Below are positions 22,823 to 29,824 of a stretch of 64,000 bases of DNA, one piece after another. The stretch is taken from assembly GCA_016218575.1 (NCBI GenBank), contig JACRDN010000017.1, positions 124,001 to 188,000 on the forward strand. The letters are read 5' to 3'. The notes under the pieces were generated by a model. That model made no database searches, was not told the origin of the DNA, and saw nothing but the letters and a program-made list of their open reading frames with translations. Position 1 is the first letter of the stretch; every line of letters begins with the position of its first letter. Position numbers and translations under genes: made by a program. Source of the DNA: Elusimicrobiota bacterium (lineage in GTDB: Bacteria > Elusimicrobiota > Elusimicrobia > UBA1565 > UBA9628).

Positions 22823-23062
22823 ATGGCCCAGGATTTCATCGCGCGGCTGCAGGTGAGCGACAATGGCTTTGCTTTCGACCCAAAGACCGGCTCGACCTTC
22901 TCGCTCAATCACACCGCCTGCCGGCTGATTTGCCTGCTCCGGGAGGGAAGAAGTCCCGAACAGATGGTTGACGACGTCATCCGGGAATACGGCATCGATT
23001 CCGCCGAGGCTCACCGCGGGGTCGAGGACTTCCTGCATTCGATCCAGGAGCTGGCTGCTTGA
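22823..23062 (+). CDS. PqqD-like RRE (RiPP recognition element) protein
   Basis: 79 residues, the normal size of a stand-alone PqqD-type domain. FIARLQVSDNGFAFDPKTGSTFSLNHTACRLICLLREG, then EQMVDDVIREYGI and a C-terminal helix (VEDFLHSIQEL) match the winged-helix PqqD fold: three strands, then helices, with the conserved hydrophobic LN.ta..i...l..g pattern. Such domains bind leader peptides and present them to modifying enzymes in PQQ, lasso and other RiPP pathways. First gene of the operon; its TGA overlaps the TTG start of the ATP-grasp gene. The domain call is from pattern recognition; which peptide it binds is inference. Confidence 0.82.
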   Translation: MAQDFIARLQVSDNGFAFDPKTGSTFSLNHTACRLICLLREGRSPEQMVDDVIREYGIDSAEAHRGVEDFLHSIQELAA

Positions 23063-24132
23063 GCCACCGGGCGCCGGAGCGGGTGGTGGGGGTTTCTGGC
23101 ATGATCGCCAACGAGAGCCCCGCCCCGGGAACGGCCGTGATCCGGTCGCTTAGGGCCTCCCCGAGCTTCAACGGGAAAGTGGTGGGGCTTGCCTACGACG
23201 CCATGGAGGCCGGCAATTTCATCGAGGGCGTGGCCGACGAGGTTTTTCTAGTCCCCTATCCGTCCCAGGGCCACGAGGACTATTTCAAGCGCCTCCTTTA
23301 TATCAAGCAGCGCACGGGCTTGAACGCCCTGATCCCGACTTTGGACGCCGAGCTTTTGCCCATCATTCAAATGTCCGACTGGCTCAAGGCCAAGGGCATC
23401 GCGACCTTCCTGCCCACGCAGGAGCAATTCCGCCTGCGTGCCAAGGACCAGCTTTTCCAGATGGCGGCCCGGCACGCCCTGCCTGTGCCGCGGTCCTTGA
23501 GCCTTTTCGATCCCGCCATGCTTTGGAGCCTGGACCGTGAGGTGCGCTACCCCCTTTTGATCAAGGGTATTTTCTACGAGGCGTATCTCGCGCGCGATCC
23601 CCAGGAGGCCGCGGCCCATTTCGAGAAGATCCGCCAGAAGTGGGGCCTGCCGGTGGTCGTCCAGGAGTTCGTCCCCGGCGATGAATACGATGTGGCGGCC
23701 GTAGGCGACGGCCGGGGCGGCGTGGTGGGTGCTGTTCCCATGCGCAAGATGCAGCTCTCCGACAAGGGCAAGGCCTGGGCGGGCGTCACGGTTTCCGATG
23801 ATAAATTGATGGAGCTGGCGCGCAAGACGATCAAGGCCCTCAAGTGGCGAGGCCCCCTTGAGCTTGAGGTCATGAAGAGCCGCGGCGCCTACTATATCAT
23901 CGAGATCAATCCCCGCTTTCCAGCCTGGATTTACCTGGCCCAGGGAGCGGGTCAGAACCTGCCTCTGGCCTGTCTTGAGCTGGCCCTGGGACGGACGCCG
24001 GCGCCTTTCGCTCCCCACAAGCCGGGCGTGGTTTTCATGCGCAGCGCGATGGATTTTATCATGCCGATGTCTAAGCTCCAGGCCCTTACCGCGGACGGAG
24101 AATGCCATGAATATGGAAGCCAGAAAGTATGA
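23059..24132 (+). CDS. ATP-grasp ligase, operon gene 2
   Basis: 357 residues from TTG 23059 (TTGA overlap with the RRE gene). N-terminal Rossmann-like part (VIRSLRASPSFNGKVVGLAYDAMEAGNFIEG), then DAELLPIIQM and the ATP-grasp core: RLRAKDQLFQMAARHALPVPRSL, PLLIKGIFYEAYLA, VVVQEFVPGDEYDVAAVGDGRG, and the Mg2+-binding WRGPLELEVMKSRGAYYIIEINPRFPAWIY. It resembles CarB/PylC-like single-chain ligases that join a carboxylate and an amine through an acyl phosphate. The product is unknown; in this setting it may ligate an amino acid or amine. Overlaps the decarboxylase gene by 26 nt. Confidence 0.85.
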   Translation: MSHRAPERVVGVSGMIANESPAPGTAVIRSLRASPSFNGKVVGLAYDAMEAGNFIEGVADEVFLVPYPSQGHEDYFKRLLYIKQRTGLNALIPTLDAELLPIIQMSDWLKAKGIATFLPTQEQFRLRAKDQLFQMAARHALPVPRSLSLFDPAMLWSLDREVRYPLLIKGIFYEAYLARDPQEAAAHFEKIRQKWGLPVVVQEFVPGDEYDVAAVGDGRGGVVGAVPMRKMQLSDKGKAWAGVTVSDDKLMELARKTIKALKWRGPLELEVMKSRGAYYIIEINPRFPAWIYLAQGAGQNLPLACLELALGRTPAPFAPHKPGVVFMRSAMDFIMPMSKLQALTADGECHEYGSQKV

Positions 24133-25531
24133 GAAGCCGCAGATCGTCAGGCACCACTCGGGCCATATGAACCATTACGGCCGCGGCAGCTGCCAGCTGC
24201 CGACCCGCGAGATAGACGGGGTCTCCTTGAAGGCCCTAGCCAAGGAGTTCGGGACTCCCCTCTACATCGTTTCGGAGAAGGCCCTCGTGCGCAAGTTCCG
24301 AGCGGCCCAGGAGGCTTTCAGTCACCGCTACCCGCGGGCGATTTTCGGCTGGTCCTACAAGACCAACTACCTCAAGGCCGTCTGCGCCCTTCTTCACCGA
24401 GAGGGAGCCTGGGCCGAGGTCGTGTCTCCCCTCGAGTACCGGATGGCCCGCTCCATGCAAATGCCGGGATCTAAAATCATCTATAACGGACCCTGCAAAA
24501 GCGAGGAGTCCTTGATCCAAGCCGTCCGGGAAGGGGCTCGAGTCCATATCGACCATTTCGACGATTTCCAGCTCCTCGAGAAAGCGGCGGCCGCCACGTA
24601 TAAAGGCCAGGGAGAAGGGGCGTTTGGCGCCTTCAAGAAATTTCCCATGGGACTGCGCATCAATCTTGACGCCGGGATTTACCCGGCCTGGAGCCATTTC
24701 GGCTTCAATCTCGAATCGGGCCAAGCCTGGGAGGCGGCGCGGCGCATCAACGCATCCCCGCTCCTCGCCCTCAAGGGCCTGCATTGCCACATCGGGACCT
24801 TCATTCTGGACCCGGAGGCCTACCGAAGGGCCCTGTTGAAGCTCCTCGACTTCTCCGACGCCTTGCGCAGGGAATTCGGGATTCAAATCGATTGGATAGA
24901 CGCGGGAGGGGGATTCGCCTCGATCAACACCTTGCATTCCTCCTATTTGATGGGCGAGCACGTGACCCCGAGCCTGAGCGAGTACGCAGCCTGCATCACC
25001 GAGCCCATCGTGGCCCGCTACAGGAACTTCGACGACATGCCGACGCTGTTCCTCGAGTCCGGCCGCGCCATGGTGGATGAGGCCGGGTTCATTCTTACCT
25101 CGGTTCTGGCCGCGAAATCCCTTCCCAGCGGCAAAAAGGCCGTCATTGTGGACTCGGGCCTCAACAATCTCTTCACGGCCCTCTGGTATAAGCACGACTT
25201 GGCCTTGACCGAGGAGAGCCAGAGTCTCATGGAGGACACCGCCGTTTACGGGTCCACCTGCATGGCCATCGACGTGATCCGGGAGTCGGTGATGCTGCCC
25301 CCGCTCTCGCGGGGCAACCTCCTCCTCATCAAGAACGCCGGGGCCTACAACATGACGCAGTGGCTGCAGTTTATCAACGAGCGCCCGGCCGTGGTCATGA
25401 TTTCCGAGGACGGAAAGGCGGAGCTCATCCGGGAGAGGGAGGACTTGTCCTACATGACTTGCCTCGAACATCTCCCGGAAAGGCTCGCCGCGCCTTCCCT
25501 ACAAACAGAAGAATGGTCATCAAAGCCATAG
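24107..25531 (+). CDS. LysA/ODC-fold PLP-dependent decarboxylase with a leader-like N-terminal extension
   Basis: 474 residues from ATG 24107 (CGGAG 6 nt upstream). Fold-type III PLP enzyme like diaminopimelate or carboxynorspermidine decarboxylase: Lys85 in FGWSYKTNYLKAVC is the probable Schiff-base lysine, followed by KIIYNGPCKSEESL, LKGLHCHIGTFI, DWIDAGGGFASINT (phosphate-binding Gly loop), FLESGRAMVDEAGFIL and GAYNMTQWLQFI. Before the domain are about 35 residues containing KYEKPQIVRHHSG and MNHYGRG. The YxxPxI part resembles the YxxPxL recognition motif of lasso-peptide leaders bound by RRE proteins. The real substrate (amino acid, or something attached by the ATP-grasp enzyme) is unknown. 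Overlaps its neighbours by 26 and 19 nt. Confidence 0.85.
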   Translation: MNMEARKYEKPQIVRHHSGHMNHYGRGSCQLPTREIDGVSLKALAKEFGTPLYIVSEKALVRKFRAAQEAFSHRYPRAIFGWSYKTNYLKAVCALLHREGAWAEVVSPLEYRMARSMQMPGSKIIYNGPCKSEESLIQAVREGARVHIDHFDDFQLLEKAAAATYKGQGEGAFGAFKKFPMGLRINLDAGIYPAWSHFGFNLESGQAWEAARRINASPLLALKGLHCHIGTFILDPEAYRRALLKLLDFSDALRREFGIQIDWIDAGGGFASINTLHSSYLMGEHVTPSLSEYAACITEPIVARYRNFDDMPTLFLESGRAMVDEAGFILTSVLAAKSLPSGKKAVIVDSGLNNLFTALWYKHDLALTEESQSLMEDTAVYGSTCMAIDVIRESVMLPPLSRGNLLLIKNAGAYNMTQWLQFINERPAVVMISEDGKAELIREREDLSYMTCLEHLPERLAAPSLQTEEWSSKP

Positions 25532-27660
25532 CCGAGGCCCTGGAGCCCGTCCTCCAGGGCTATTCCGGGGTTTACTTCTCCCGTAAAAAGGGGACGGCCC
25601 TCCTTTTCCTGGCCGCGACTTTGATCGAGCCAACGCACGGGTTTTGCGGGCTTCTTTGCGCTTTAGTTTGCGCGCTATTCCTTAGGAAAATAGGCTTTGA
25701 CCAGGCCTCCATCCGCGGCTGGCCCTACAGCGTCAACGCCCTCTTGGTCGGATTGGCTCTGGCTCGGCACTTTTCGCCGTCTTGGCAATTGATCCCGATC
25801 CTTGTCCTGGCCGGGGTGTTGACGGCCCTGTCTATTTCCGCGCTCAGGTCCATTTTCGAGGCGGTTTTCAACCTGCCCCAGATGAGCCTCGCCTTCGTTT
25901 TGATCACGGCTTTTCTCTACGCCGCGGCGGGCCTGCCGGCGCAGGCCGCCCGCCTGCCCTCGATGGCCTGGTTTTCCTCATGCCCTCCCGTCGAGGGCTA
26001 CTTGAGGGCCGTGGCCGCGGTTTTCTTTTGCGGAGGCGCGGGAGCGGGAATCCTTGTTTTTGCGGGGCTTCTGTATTCCTCGCGCATCGCCACGGTCTTG
26101 TCCATCATCGGCTACGCCGCGGGCACGCTCGCCGGCGCTTTTTTGAGCCCGGCCGCGGCTTCGGGCGGGGATTTCCAGGGCTACAATTATGCCGTGGCCG
26201 CGATCGCCATTGGAGGGATTTACTCGGTCCCTTCGCTTTCATCCTACGGCATGGCCGCCATGGCCGCGGCTTTATGCGTGCCTATCGGTCAGGGCGTCAT
26301 CGTGGCCATCGGGCCGCAGATAGGGGTCTTGTCCATGCCGTTTCTGGCTGTCACCTATCTTTTCATCGCCGGCCTTCGGATGCGGCCGGCCAACCGGGAC
26401 CCGGAGCTTCTGCTTTTCCCGGCCGCCTCGCCCGAGGAAAACCTTGCCATCGCCCATTCCCACCGCCTGCGCCAGAAGGGAGCCTCCTCAGCCGGGCTGC
26501 GCCTGCCCTTCATCGGGGCCTGGCGCGTGACCCAGGGGGTGAGCGGAGAGCACACCCATATCGACAAGTGGCGTCACGCTCTTGATTTTTCCCTGCGGCA
26601 CGATGAGTCGGATGAGTCCCGCCCCGGGTGGGGGCGGCTCTCCAGCTTCCCGGCCTACGGCCTGCCGGTGATCTCTCCCCAGTCCGGGTTCGTCTCCAAA
26701 ATCGTGGACGGCATACCCGACAATGAACTCGGCTCCATAGACACCGAGCGCAATTGGGGCAATTACGTCTCGATCCAGCATGATGACGGGACCTTCTCCC
26801 TGATCTGCCACCTCAAGCAAGGCTCGATCAAGGTCAAACCCTGGCAGCGCGTGAGCGGCGGAGAGGCCGTGGCGCTGTGCGGCAATTCCGGGCGCTCTCC
26901 CACTCCCCATATCCATTACCATCTCCAAAAAACGGCGGAGGCTGGGAGCGAAACCTTGCCCTTCGCCTTCTCCGCCTATATCGAGGGCGGGGATAACCCC
27001 TGCCTGCGCGAGCATGCCGTTCCGCAGAAGGGCCAGACAGTGGAAAATCTTGTCATCTGCCAGGCAACCAAGGCCGCCTTCAATTTCGTGACTGGGAGTT
27101 CTTATCCCTTCGAAGTGTCCAGCAGGAAGGGCCGGCATGTCGAGACCTTGACGGCCGCCATGGACCTCTACGGCTGGCGCTACCTCGAGTCGGATAGGGA
27201 CCGCTCCCGCCTCTATTACCACCTGACCCACGACATGTTCTACCTTGACTATTGCTCGGCCAAGCCGGGATCTCTGCTCTTTTCCCTTTTCTTGGCCGCG
27301 TCCAAGGTCCCCCTGGTCGATTCCGAGCGGCTGTTCTGGAAAGACGAACTGCCTCTCAATTCCTTCATGCGCGGGGCGGCCAGGCTCGGCGCGGAGTTTC
27401 TGCTGCCGTTTATCCCCGGCTACGGAGTGGAAGTGTCGCGTCGTTTCGTCGAAACGTCCCGGACGGCCGAGCTCAAGCTGGTGGCGGTCGAATCGAAGGT
27501 GTCCGTTCCCTGGCCGAGCGCTTTAAAGGATTTGACGGCTCAAGCGGTGTTTTGCGAAGGGAGAGGGCCCGTGACGATCACGGTCTCAAGCCTAAGCCTC
27601 GGCGTGGAGTTGAGCGCCATGACGGTGAGACAGGAGGAGAGATGCGGCATGGGAATTTAA
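25513..27660 (+). CDS. Urea-transporter (UT) domain fused to an M23 LytM-type peptidase
   Basis: 715 residues from ATG 25513. Residues about 1-300 form a polytopic membrane domain with UT-family landmarks in two repeated halves: IRGWPYSVNALLVGLALARH and LPQMSLAFVLITAFL, then FQGYNYAVAAIAIGGIYSVPS. Next is an M23 domain (about 330-480) with zinc-ligand motifs HTHIDKWRHALDFSL (HxxxD type) and HIHYHLQK (HxH). The remaining about 230 residues are an unrecognised beta-rich tail (DLYGWRYLESDRDRSRLYYHL). UT proteins are passive channels for urea-like small neutral molecules; M23 enzymes cut peptidoglycan cross-links. The fusion suggests movement of a small product coupled to wall opening. Overlaps neighbours by 19 nt each. 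Confidence 0.85.
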   Translation: MVIKAIAEALEPVLQGYSGVYFSRKKGTALLFLAATLIEPTHGFCGLLCALVCALFLRKIGFDQASIRGWPYSVNALLVGLALARHFSPSWQLIPILVLAGVLTALSISALRSIFEAVFNLPQMSLAFVLITAFLYAAAGLPAQAARLPSMAWFSSCPPVEGYLRAVAAVFFCGGAGAGILVFAGLLYSSRIATVLSIIGYAAGTLAGAFLSPAAASGGDFQGYNYAVAAIAIGGIYSVPSLSSYGMAAMAAALCVPIGQGVIVAIGPQIGVLSMPFLAVTYLFIAGLRMRPANRDPELLLFPAASPEENLAIAHSHRLRQKGASSAGLRLPFIGAWRVTQGVSGEHTHIDKWRHALDFSLRHDESDESRPGWGRLSSFPAYGLPVISPQSGFVSKIVDGIPDNELGSIDTERNWGNYVSIQHDDGTFSLICHLKQGSIKVKPWQRVSGGEAVALCGNSGRSPTPHIHYHLQKTAEAGSETLPFAFSAYIEGGDNPCLREHAVPQKGQTVENLVICQATKAAFNFVTGSSYPFEVSSRKGRHVETLTAAMDLYGWRYLESDRDRSRLYYHLTHDMFYLDYCSAKPGSLLFSLFLAASKVPLVDSERLFWKDELPLNSFMRGAARLGAEFLLPFIPGYGVEVSRRFVETSRTAELKLVAVESKVSVPWPSALKDLTAQAVFCEGRGPVTITVSSLSLGVELSAMTVRQEERCGMGI

Positions 27661-29144
27661 TGAATGCGGCGTTCTTCTTGGTGTTGGCCGTCCCGGCCAC
27701 GGCCCAGCTTCAGCGCCCGCCAGAAAATTCCGAGGCCGTGCCAGCGCCGGAATTTAAAGGCGCCCCCGCGGCTCCGGCCACGGCGCCTGATCCCGGAATG
27801 GCGCCCGCAAGCCGCGACCTGGCGGCGGCCGCGGTTAAGTCCGAGGCTCTGCTGGCCGACGGCGACCTCCAGGGAGCCCGTGGGGCGCTCGACGCCGCGG
27901 TGAAGGCACGCCCGGACATTTATTGGCTGGTTCTGCGCTACGCCTATTTGTCGTATCTTCTAGGGGATTTCAGCACCGCCCAGGCCCATTACCGGCTGGC
28001 CGCCTCTATCGGGCCAAGCGAGGAGGCTCCGGTCGAGGGCCTTTTCTACTCGGCCTTGGGGCGCGGAGATCCCTCGTGGAAGGCCCAGGCCAAGGCCCTC
28101 CTCGGTTTGAACCCGGCCCACCGCGAGGCTAATCTGCGCATGGCTTACGAGGAATTCGCCGCGCGGCGCTATGAGAGCGCCTCCGGGCATTACGCCCGCG
28201 TTTTGAGCCTCACGCCCGAGGACGCGGATGCTCTACTGGGCTGGGGCTGGTCCCAATTCTATTCGGGCAGGTATTGGGCCGCGAAGGGAAATTTCGAGCG
28301 CGTGCTCAGGATGTTCCCGGAGAACGCCTCGGCCAAGCAGGGGCTTGAGTGGTGCCCCAGAACCTTGTCCGTGGCGGCAGGATACTCCTTCGCGGCGCTC
28401 GACTACAAGAACATCGCCTTCAAAAAAGGGGGACACAGCACAGCGGTCCCGGTTACCATGGCCTACAAGAAACTGTCCTTGACCGCCTCCTACACCCGTA
28501 CCGTCATAGATTTCGCCGATCCCACGGCGGATGTGGAGCAAAAGGAAATAAACATAGCGCCCTCCTTCAGCCTCACGCCCAAGCTTTCGCTCATAGGAGC
28601 CTACGACCACATCAACGTCAATGACCCGGTCACCGATCAGGGCAATGTCTACACGGGAGGGCTCAACTACACGACGGCGTTGGGCGCCGGCGGAGGCTTT
28701 CTCTCCGCGGGGGGGTCCTACACCTACTCCGATTACCCGCAGTCCCGAGCGGCCCAGGTCGTGCCTCATATCGGGATCGGAAAGAGCGGCCTGATTTACG
28801 CCGATTTTTCCCTCATGCACATCAACCTCAATTCCAGGAACGAGAAGCTGAACACCGGCGTTGCCTCCTTGGCTCTGGGGCCCTTGCGGAACTTCACTGC
28901 CACGGCCAAGGGCTACGTCGGCAAAAAGCGGCTCGCCGTGGACGACTGGGGGACTTTGATTTCGAATAACCAGGACCTCTACCGCAGCGGCTGGCGTCTG
29001 GGTCTTTCCTGGGCATGGAAGGGGCTCACGGCCTTCGGCGTCTGGGGCCGGGACAGCGTCCGGGCCAATGTGACCGCCGCGACGACGTTGGACTATACGG
29101 CCTCGGTTTTAGTCGGCGGATTTAGCGCGAGATTTGGTTATTAA
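27642..29144 (+). CDS. TPR protein with C-terminal outer-membrane beta-barrel (YaiO-like)
   Basis: 500 residues from ATG 27642 (GGAGGAGAG immediately upstream; another ATG at 27660 has no such site). Signal peptide LMNAAFFLVLAVPATA, a Pro/Ala-rich linker, TPR repeats about residues 65-245 (GDLQGARGALDAAVKARPD, FSTAQAHYRLAASIGPS, RRYESASGHYARVLSLTPED, GRYWAAKGNFERVLRMFPEN), then about 250 residues of alternating strands (LSVAAGYSFAALDY, LSLTASYTRTVIDF, LSLIGAYDHINV) ending GGFSARFGY with the terminal aromatic typical of outer-membrane barrels. The layout matches the YaiO-type OMP family. It would give the operon a surface exit or anchor. Overlaps the UT-M23 gene by 19 nt. Confidence 0.85.
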   Translation: MRHGNLMNAAFFLVLAVPATAQLQRPPENSEAVPAPEFKGAPAAPATAPDPGMAPASRDLAAAAVKSEALLADGDLQGARGALDAAVKARPDIYWLVLRYAYLSYLLGDFSTAQAHYRLAASIGPSEEAPVEGLFYSALGRGDPSWKAQAKALLGLNPAHREANLRMAYEEFAARRYESASGHYARVLSLTPEDADALLGWGWSQFYSGRYWAAKGNFERVLRMFPENASAKQGLEWCPRTLSVAAGYSFAALDYKNIAFKKGGHSTAVPVTMAYKKLSLTASYTRTVIDFADPTADVEQKEINIAPSFSLTPKLSLIGAYDHINVNDPVTDQGNVYTGGLNYTTALGAGGGFLSAGGSYTYSDYPQSRAAQVVPHIGIGKSGLIYADFSLMHINLNSRNEKLNTGVASLALGPLRNFTATAKGYVGKKRLAVDDWGTLISNNQDLYRSGWRLGLSWAWKGLTAFGVWGRDSVRANVTAATTLDYTASVLVGGFSARFGY

Positions 29145-29209: not shown

Positions 29210-29824
29210 ATGAGAAACATCGTACTCGCAGTGATCGCAGCGTTGTCGGCGCCGTCCTGGTCCGCGGCCCAGGGCCGGCTCCAGGACGTCATCGCTTCCT
29301 CTTATGCGGCCGAGGCCGGCCGCGATATCGCGGGAGCGATGAAGGTGATGAGGAGCGTGGAGGAGACGGAGGGCGACAGCTACATTTATAGGCTGAGGAT
29401 GGGGTGGCTGGCTTATCTGGGCGGCATGTGGAACGAGAGCATCGCGCAGTACCAGAACGCGGCCAAGATCGCTCCCGAGGCCATAGAACCTCTCCAAGGG
29501 CTTCTCTTGCCCTTGGCGGCAGCCGGCAAGACCGCCGAGATCTCCCGGGCCCACGAGATGGTGCTGGCCATAGACCCCAACAACTACAAATCCCTTTCCC
29601 AGCTCGCCTGGATCAACTACCAGGCAAAGGATTACAAGAAAGCGGTCAAGTACTACGCTCGAATCATCAAACTCTACCCGACGGACGTGGAAATGCTCTT
29701 GGGCTTGGGCTACAGCCTCAAGCTCGAGGGCGACAGGGGCGGTTCCGAGAGAGTGTTCAAGCAAGTCCTGATGCTGAGCCCGAAGAACGCCCGGGCTTTG
29801 GAAGGGTTGAAAGGAACGGCCTAG
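29210..29824 (+). CDS. Exported tetratricopeptide-repeat protein, last gene of the RRE operon
   Basis: 204 residues with signal peptide MRNIVLAVIAALSAPSWSAA and a good ribosome site (AAGGAGGAAG). At least four TPR units: RDIAGAMKVMRSVEETEGD, GMWNESIAQYQNAAKIAPE, AEISRAHEMVLAIDPNN, KDYKKAVKYYARIIKLYPTD and SERVFKQVLMLSPKN. It resembles the TPR part of the preceding barrel protein, so the two may be duplicates that work as periplasmic partner and barrel. It ends in a 4-nt convergent overlap with purK. Confidence 0.83.
   Translation: MRNIVLAVIAALSAPSWSAAQGRLQDVIASSYAAEAGRDIAGAMKVMRSVEETEGDSYIYRLRMGWLAYLGGMWNESIAQYQNAAKIAPEAIEPLQGLLLPLAAAGKTAEISRAHEMVLAIDPNNYKSLSQLAWINYQAKDYKKAVKYYARIIKLYPTDVEMLLGLGYSLKLEGDRGGSERVFKQVLMLSPKNARALEGLKGTA

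Follow-up and report, generated by a model that had tools for sequence, protein, structure and literature searches.

Recognition of leader peptides by RREs

The closest described relatives of the system presented here are the discrete RREs of lasso-peptide pathways, such as TbiB1, TfuB1/FusB1 and PbaB1, which read leaders of the type [YW]xxPx[L/V/I], together with the LPP system, where a YxxPxV leader on the precursor LppA is read by the PqqD-like RRE LppB (PMC13381572). Structures of LppB and PbaB1 revealed how this reading takes place: in LppB, the leader Tyr is bonded by D70, the Pro has its kink fixed by N33 and F74 packed against it, and the N33A change almost abolishes leader binding (PMC13381572). 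Contacts with LppB are confined to the first half of the leader, and LppA itself is a precursor of 35-200 aa from which a signal-peptidase-like enzyme cleaves the leader (PMC13381572). In these precedents, the polypeptide that bears the leader is the substrate of the pathway (PMC12710340, PMC13381572). Genome mining for RiPPs makes use of RRE genes, many of which are found without a recognisable precursor.

In this regard, a preliminary description of a window of 64,000 nucleotides of DNA (the whole stretch analysed) drew attention to a YxxPxI motif attached to the N-terminus of a PLP decarboxylase, in the same operon as an RRE gene. The follow-up presented below indicates that this tail very probably is a genuine RRE ligand, and points to a system in which the client of the RRE is an enzyme.

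The operon and its relatives

Six genes make up the cassette in the window:

22823-23062, + strand: discrete RRE, a PqqD-like winged-helix protein of 79 aa, P0002 (Pfam PqqD, AF2, Foldseek)
23059-24132, + strand: ATP-grasp enzyme, carbamoyl-phosphate-synthase-like / ATPgrasp_Ter, with a TTG start
24107-25531, + strand: PLP decarboxylase, open reading frame P0001
25513-27660, + strand: fourth gene, urea-transporter-family (UT) membrane domain fused to an M23 peptidase domain (Pfam UT 7.9e-40, Peptidase_M23 3.7e-13)
27642-29144, + strand: fifth gene, TPR protein (TPR matches) with a beta-rich C-terminal part
29210-29824, + strand: sixth gene, TPR protein (TPR_2 1.6e-14)

The apparent TTG start of the ATP-grasp gene overlaps the RRE stop codon (TTGA, 23059-23062), suggesting translational coupling of the two genes, and the first 20-26 bases or so of the decarboxylase gene lie within the end of the ATP-grasp gene. 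The UT-M23 fusion has a further ~230 aa without a Pfam match, and the C-terminal part of the fifth-gene TPR protein may form an outer-membrane barrel.

Relatives were gathered from 62 loci of a genome collection and from further loci of genome samples; one of the loci (L046) belongs to the cultivated Prolixibacter denitrificans. ATP-grasp and RRE genes lie near nearly all the tailed decarboxylases, and 101 of 109 tailed loci yielded an RRE; among the other 8, two (L094 and L133) are limited by their contigs. Two apparently RRE-less loci, L115 and L140, showed an RRE once a wider flank was considered, in one case behind an inserted FG-GAP gene and in the other ahead of two tandem ATP-grasp genes, so that no tailed decarboxylase lacking an RRE partner, which the preliminary description would have taken as refuting its proposal, has been established. 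Of 296 Bacteroidota genomes, 27 matched the tail profile, and the ATP-grasp protein was found in the same 27. The family of the UT-M23 fusion is conserved with the cassette in 56 loci, that of the fifth-gene TPR protein is present in 38 loci and that of the sixth-gene TPR protein in 33.

Some loci carry additional features. A gene family with a type IX secretion C-terminal sorting domain occurs in about 11 Bacteroidota loci, with one member placed between the ATP-grasp and decarboxylase genes (L061:5179-5958), and a family of AraC-type helix-turn-helix genes, which may regulate the cassette, is present in 21 loci, lying upstream of the RRE in L061 (3252-3791). Another locus has two tandem ATP-grasp genes (L142:1392-3920) and an RRE extended at its N-terminus by a Cys/His-rich stretch that resembles a small zinc-binding motif. 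No description of this set of genes (RRE, ATP-grasp, decarboxylase, UT-M23 fusion and two TPR proteins) was found in the open-access papers searched, an earlier one in subscription papers being possible, and the RRE surveys PMC7470986 and PMC12710340 make no mention of a decarboxylase.

A conserved tail at the decarboxylase N-terminus

The decarboxylase can be divided as follows:

24107-24196, + strand: N-terminal tail, residues 1-30, leader-like and predicted to be disordered (pLDDT, conservation)
24128-24145, + strand: YEKPQI, putative RRE-recognition motif [YF]xxPxI (conservation; first residue covaries with the RRE)
24161-24181, + strand: GHMNHYG, second conserved tail element, consensus G-x3-K-F-G (conservation in 108 tails)
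24197-25531, + strand: fold-III PLP decarboxylase body (Pfam, PDB matches, invariant columns)

The open reading frame 24107-25531 (+) begins MNMEARKYEKPQIVRHHSGHMNHYGRG, and the peptide KYEKPQIVRHHSGHMNHYG falls within the first ~30 residues of P0001. This confirms that the YxxPxI peptide sits exactly at the start of the reading frame, with Y8xxP11xI13 as its motif residues. A second ATG, at 24113, appears the likelier start of the protein, since it gives MEARKYEKP, which resembles the MEKxxYERP that opens most homologues.

The tails of 108 relatives, drawn from at least three phyla, follow the consensus [YF]-E-[RK]-P-x-I-x-[RK]-x3-G-x3-K-F-G. The first position is Tyr in 79 tails and Phe in 29, and the Pro at +3 is present in 108 of 108, followed by Ile at +5 (97), Lys/Arg at +7 (102), Gly at +11 (98), Lys at +15 (105), Phe at +16 (91) and Gly at +17 (103). 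The motif first described was thus well conserved in the homologues, and its extent has to be revised: the YxxPxI is there, but the conserved motif is longer. The window tail departs from the consensus at one near-invariant position, with His23 in place of the Lys found in 105 of the 108. Judged from these alignments, the motif is not a chance match, though a lone YxxPxI easily arises by chance.

Full-length matches to the window decarboxylase start at its residues 1-8, so the tail belongs to the family, whereas none of 23 LysA-type decarboxylase paralogues examined has the motif. The same genome encodes a separate LysA-like protein, whose match begins at residue 36 of the window decarboxylase. 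The linker following KFG varies among relatives in both sequence and length. An AF2 prediction on 53 aligned sequences gave a pLDDT of 41-50 for residues 1-30 and of about 94 from residue 31 onwards, and a conserved motif on a tail predicted to be disordered would be the usual picture of a docking motif. A comparison of the tail profile with the PDB returned nothing meaningful.

The RRE and its leader-reading residues

The RRE gene proposed for the operon is borne out by P0002, the 79-aa product of which scores 40.9 bits against PF05402 (cut-off 23.4; E = 2.6e-10) and is thereby a member of this family. A profile built from 43 RRE relatives matches TbiB1 (3.2e-12), TfuB1 (1e-8) and PbaB1 (9x90, 1e-3), while its matches to PqqD (5sxy) and LppB (9x8z) were not significant. 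The AF2 model of the window RRE (pLDDT 89.7) has the fold of TbiB1, TfuB1 and PqqD, and the first six Foldseek ranks are all lasso RRE-leader complexes, with query TM-scores of 0.72-0.79. The predicted protein accordingly shows the winged-helix fold with a peptide cleft formed by the beta-sheet and the third helix.

The residues of LppB that read the leader were mapped onto the window RRE through the alignment with 9x90, in which G42, Q79 and F83 of PbaB1 are the stated or aligned equivalents. N33 corresponds to Asn29, D70 to Gly66 and F74 to Phe70 of the window protein. Within the family, position 29 is Asn in 97 of 98 sequences, position 70 is Phe in 91 of 101 and position 66 is Asp in 56 of 101, so that the leader-reading residues are found across the family, and the window RRE has the Asn and the Phe, with Gly instead of the Asp. 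The window pair is atypical on both sides, having Gly66 at the Tyr-reading position of the RRE and His23 in place of the conserved Lys of the tail.

Covariation between tail and RRE

The variation at the D70-equivalent position made it possible to test the pairing of the leader Tyr with the Asp. The pair tested was named by the published structures and not picked from the data, and the prediction was that Tyr tails would go with Asp and Phe tails would lack it, since Phe has no hydroxyl. With Tyr tails, RRE position 66 is Asp (56), Asn (9), His (4), Ala (2), Gly (1) or Val (1); with Phe tails it is Tyr (24), Ser (3) or His (1). In other words, Asp goes with a Tyr tail in 56 of 56 cases and with none of the 28 Phe tails. 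Of 842 columns taken from the RRE, the ATP-grasp protein and the decarboxylase body, this one by itself accounts for 96% of the entropy of the tail Tyr/Phe choice and the runner-up for 54%. Once sequences are weighted and the background is corrected for, the pair reaches z = 11.4, against 4.7 for the next best of 681 columns from the same three proteins. The Tyr/Phe residue changed about 7 times on the best tree, with one independent pair on well-supported branches and hence no power for a tree-aware sign test; with so few independent changes, the pair owes its significance to standing out from the other columns, all of which have the same ancestry. No outlier covarying partner emerged for the second tail half (G-x3-K-F-G), which is nearly as conserved as the RRE motif.

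These results bear on the idea that the tail serves the decarboxylase itself in a structural or regulatory way, for instance as a dimer contact or an active-site lid, and that the RRE is unrelated to it. The constant presence of the tail in this decarboxylase family is what speaks for it, but a tail predicted to be disordered, solved relatives that nearly all align only from about residue 36, and a first motif residue that covaries with the RRE rather than with the enzyme body (0.96 against 0.54 for the best body column) make this explanation very improbable. Altogether, the conservation and the covariation argue strongly that the RRE binds the decarboxylase tail in the canonical mode of lasso leaders, which we hold to be highly probable.

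No separate precursor peptide seen

A short precursor with a recognised leader, as a RiPP pathway would have, was not found in the loci nor in 34 whole genomes. Besides the decarboxylase, a strict motif scan of 66 loci picked up a small number of chance matches scattered over unrelated frames, which were rejected as candidates. Searched through the 34 genomes with the cassette, the tail profile gave nothing below E = 0.07 besides the decarboxylase (the match in G814 being a decarboxylase copy cut off by the contig end), and in the 296 Bacteroidota genomes the decarboxylase was again the sole bearer; since the profile finds only this enzyme, no separate precursor with such a leader is seen. Moreover, neither a lasso B2 leader peptidase nor an asparagine-synthetase-like C protein is present among the six cassette genes.

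The preliminary description had also considered that the tail could be a relic, descended from the lasso-like leader of a precursor gene fused to the enzyme and now without a role. The likeness of the motif to lasso leaders (PMC13381572) agrees with such a descent, as does a weak, sub-threshold match of the consensus tail to Pfam DUF5972 (E = 0.017). An origin of the tail by a long-ago fusion is possible. A present-day relic is nevertheless extremely improbable: the strong conservation of the tail across phyla and its continuing covariation, at the level of residues, with its partner RRE point to strong present selection on binding, and no living precursor with the same leader was found in the loci, the 34 cassette genomes or the 296 Bacteroidota genomes.

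The enzyme body and its possible chemistry

The body of the decarboxylase belongs to the ornithine/DAP/arginine type (Pfam Orn_Arg_deC_N 1.4e-28, Orn_DAP_Arg_deC 2.5e-14) and keeps the residues of the PLP site. Its closest solved structure is the N-citrylornithine decarboxylase 7kh2 (186 bits), followed by DAP decarboxylases, with BtrK (7ru7) as a more distant structural match. The protein stays far below the curated thresholds of LysA (TIGR01048, 212 against 297.9 bits) and of FslC (NF041039, 199.9 against 500 bits), and the NIS-type synthetase that neighbours FslC-type enzymes is not seen, the cassette ligase being an ATP-grasp enzyme. In DAP decarboxylases, the Glu of the CE-x-x-D motif contacts the substrate. 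The window enzyme has CMaiD at this place and shares CM-x-x-D with 7kh2; since the substrate-contacting Glu is replaced, its sequence makes it likely that the substrate has an acylated or otherwise changed far end. A sequence of ligation followed by decarboxylation is a fair guess, because the ATP-grasp ligase gene adjoins that of the decarboxylase. The UT-M23 and TPR proteins invite the speculation that the product has to do with the cell envelope or with export.

A proposed role for the tail

By analogy with the way discrete RREs work, the RRE would also bind the ATP-grasp protein, and the reading that we favour, as a probable one, is that it serves as an adaptor, gripping the tail of the decarboxylase and recruiting this enzyme to the ATP-grasp enzyme. 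The tail would be a cis-acting leader, held by the RRE encoded two genes upstream. To judge from homologous complexes, it would pair as an extra strand with the RRE beta-sheet, with Tyr8 (Phe in some relatives) filling pocket 1, Ile13 filling pocket 2, and Pro11 kinked by Asn29 and packed on Phe70. In this way the RRE would bring the decarboxylase together with the operon's own ATP-grasp ligase in a putative three-protein complex, where the second half of the tail, with GxxxKFG, may contact the ligase and an acylated amino acid made by the ligase would be handed to the decarboxylase. Of the three readings first offered for the tail, recruitment to the RRE fits best, and the Tyr/Phe covariation supports the binding on which it depends; the RRE precedents in which the leader-bearing polypeptide is the substrate count against it (PMC12710340, PMC13381572).

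Those same precedents favour the reading of the decarboxylase itself as the substrate, with the RRE presenting the tail to the ATP-grasp enzyme for attachment of an amino acid or another acid, for instance on the conserved Lys of KFG, which would result in a self-carried swinging arm or in a modified enzyme as the product. The retention of this Lys in 105 of 108 tails is consistent with it, as are relatives of the decarboxylase such as 7ru7, which acts on carrier-protein-bound glutamate, and 7kh2. However, the window has His in place of this Lys and two other relatives have Glu, so a Lys is not obligatory, the variable linker after KFG leaves no conserved core, and the kept catalytic residues indicate that the enzyme is not a mere carrier, so that we consider this alternative rather unlikely, if a serious one. 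Under the preferred reading of an adaptor, it seems that an entire enzyme is docked or delivered here by means of a type of recognition familiar from peptide antibiotics.

On balance, we think it probable that RREs are not only chaperones of precursor peptides, and that here, in a cassette present in at least three phyla, an RRE docks a full enzyme without any ribosomal peptide being produced. Docking would serve either an assembly of ligase, RRE and decarboxylase that makes a small molecule or the loading of a substrate onto the tail of the enzyme itself. If RREs do dock enzymes, part of the orphan RREs would be explained and searches for their missing peptides would be misdirected. The cassette may make an unknown metabolite, and the swap between Tyr-Asp and Phe-Tyr pairs provides a natural set of matched pairs for tests of specificity.

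Comparison with known systems

Butirosin biosynthesis reportedly uses an ATP-grasp loader, BtrJ, and a fold-III PLP decarboxylase, BtrK, which act on an acyl carrier protein. The pairing of an ATP-grasp ligase with a fold-III decarboxylase is the same in the cassette, but instead of an acyl carrier protein, for which no gene was recognised, an RRE and a tail are found. FslC (7kh2) and LysA are fold-III PLP decarboxylases too, but without the tail. PqqA/PqqD resembles the cassette in the Pfam family PF05402 and in having a discrete RRE encoded alongside enzymes; it differs in its short peptide, PqqA, and its radical SAM partner enzyme, PqqE, neither of which was found among the cassette genes.

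In fold and sequence, the discrete RREs of lasso systems are the closest to the window RRE. The tail is likewise of the YxxPxI type, and the Pro-reading Asn and Phe are conserved, with the Tyr-reading Asp in 56 of 101 loci. The differences lie in the leader, here the tail of a ~50 kDa PLP enzyme and not part of a short precursor, and in the absence of the B2 peptidase and the asparagine-synthetase-like cyclase from the cassette. The LPP system offers the same likeness in the reading of its leader through N33, D70 and F74, and the restriction of contacts to the first half of the leader may hold here as well (PMC13381572); its client is a precursor, whereas here it is an enzyme, and no signal-peptidase-like enzyme is seen in the cassette. 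Without the RiPP-defining features that were tested, the cassette is in all probability an RRE system with an enzyme as its client, in which the leader would be recognised as in the lasso and LPP systems.
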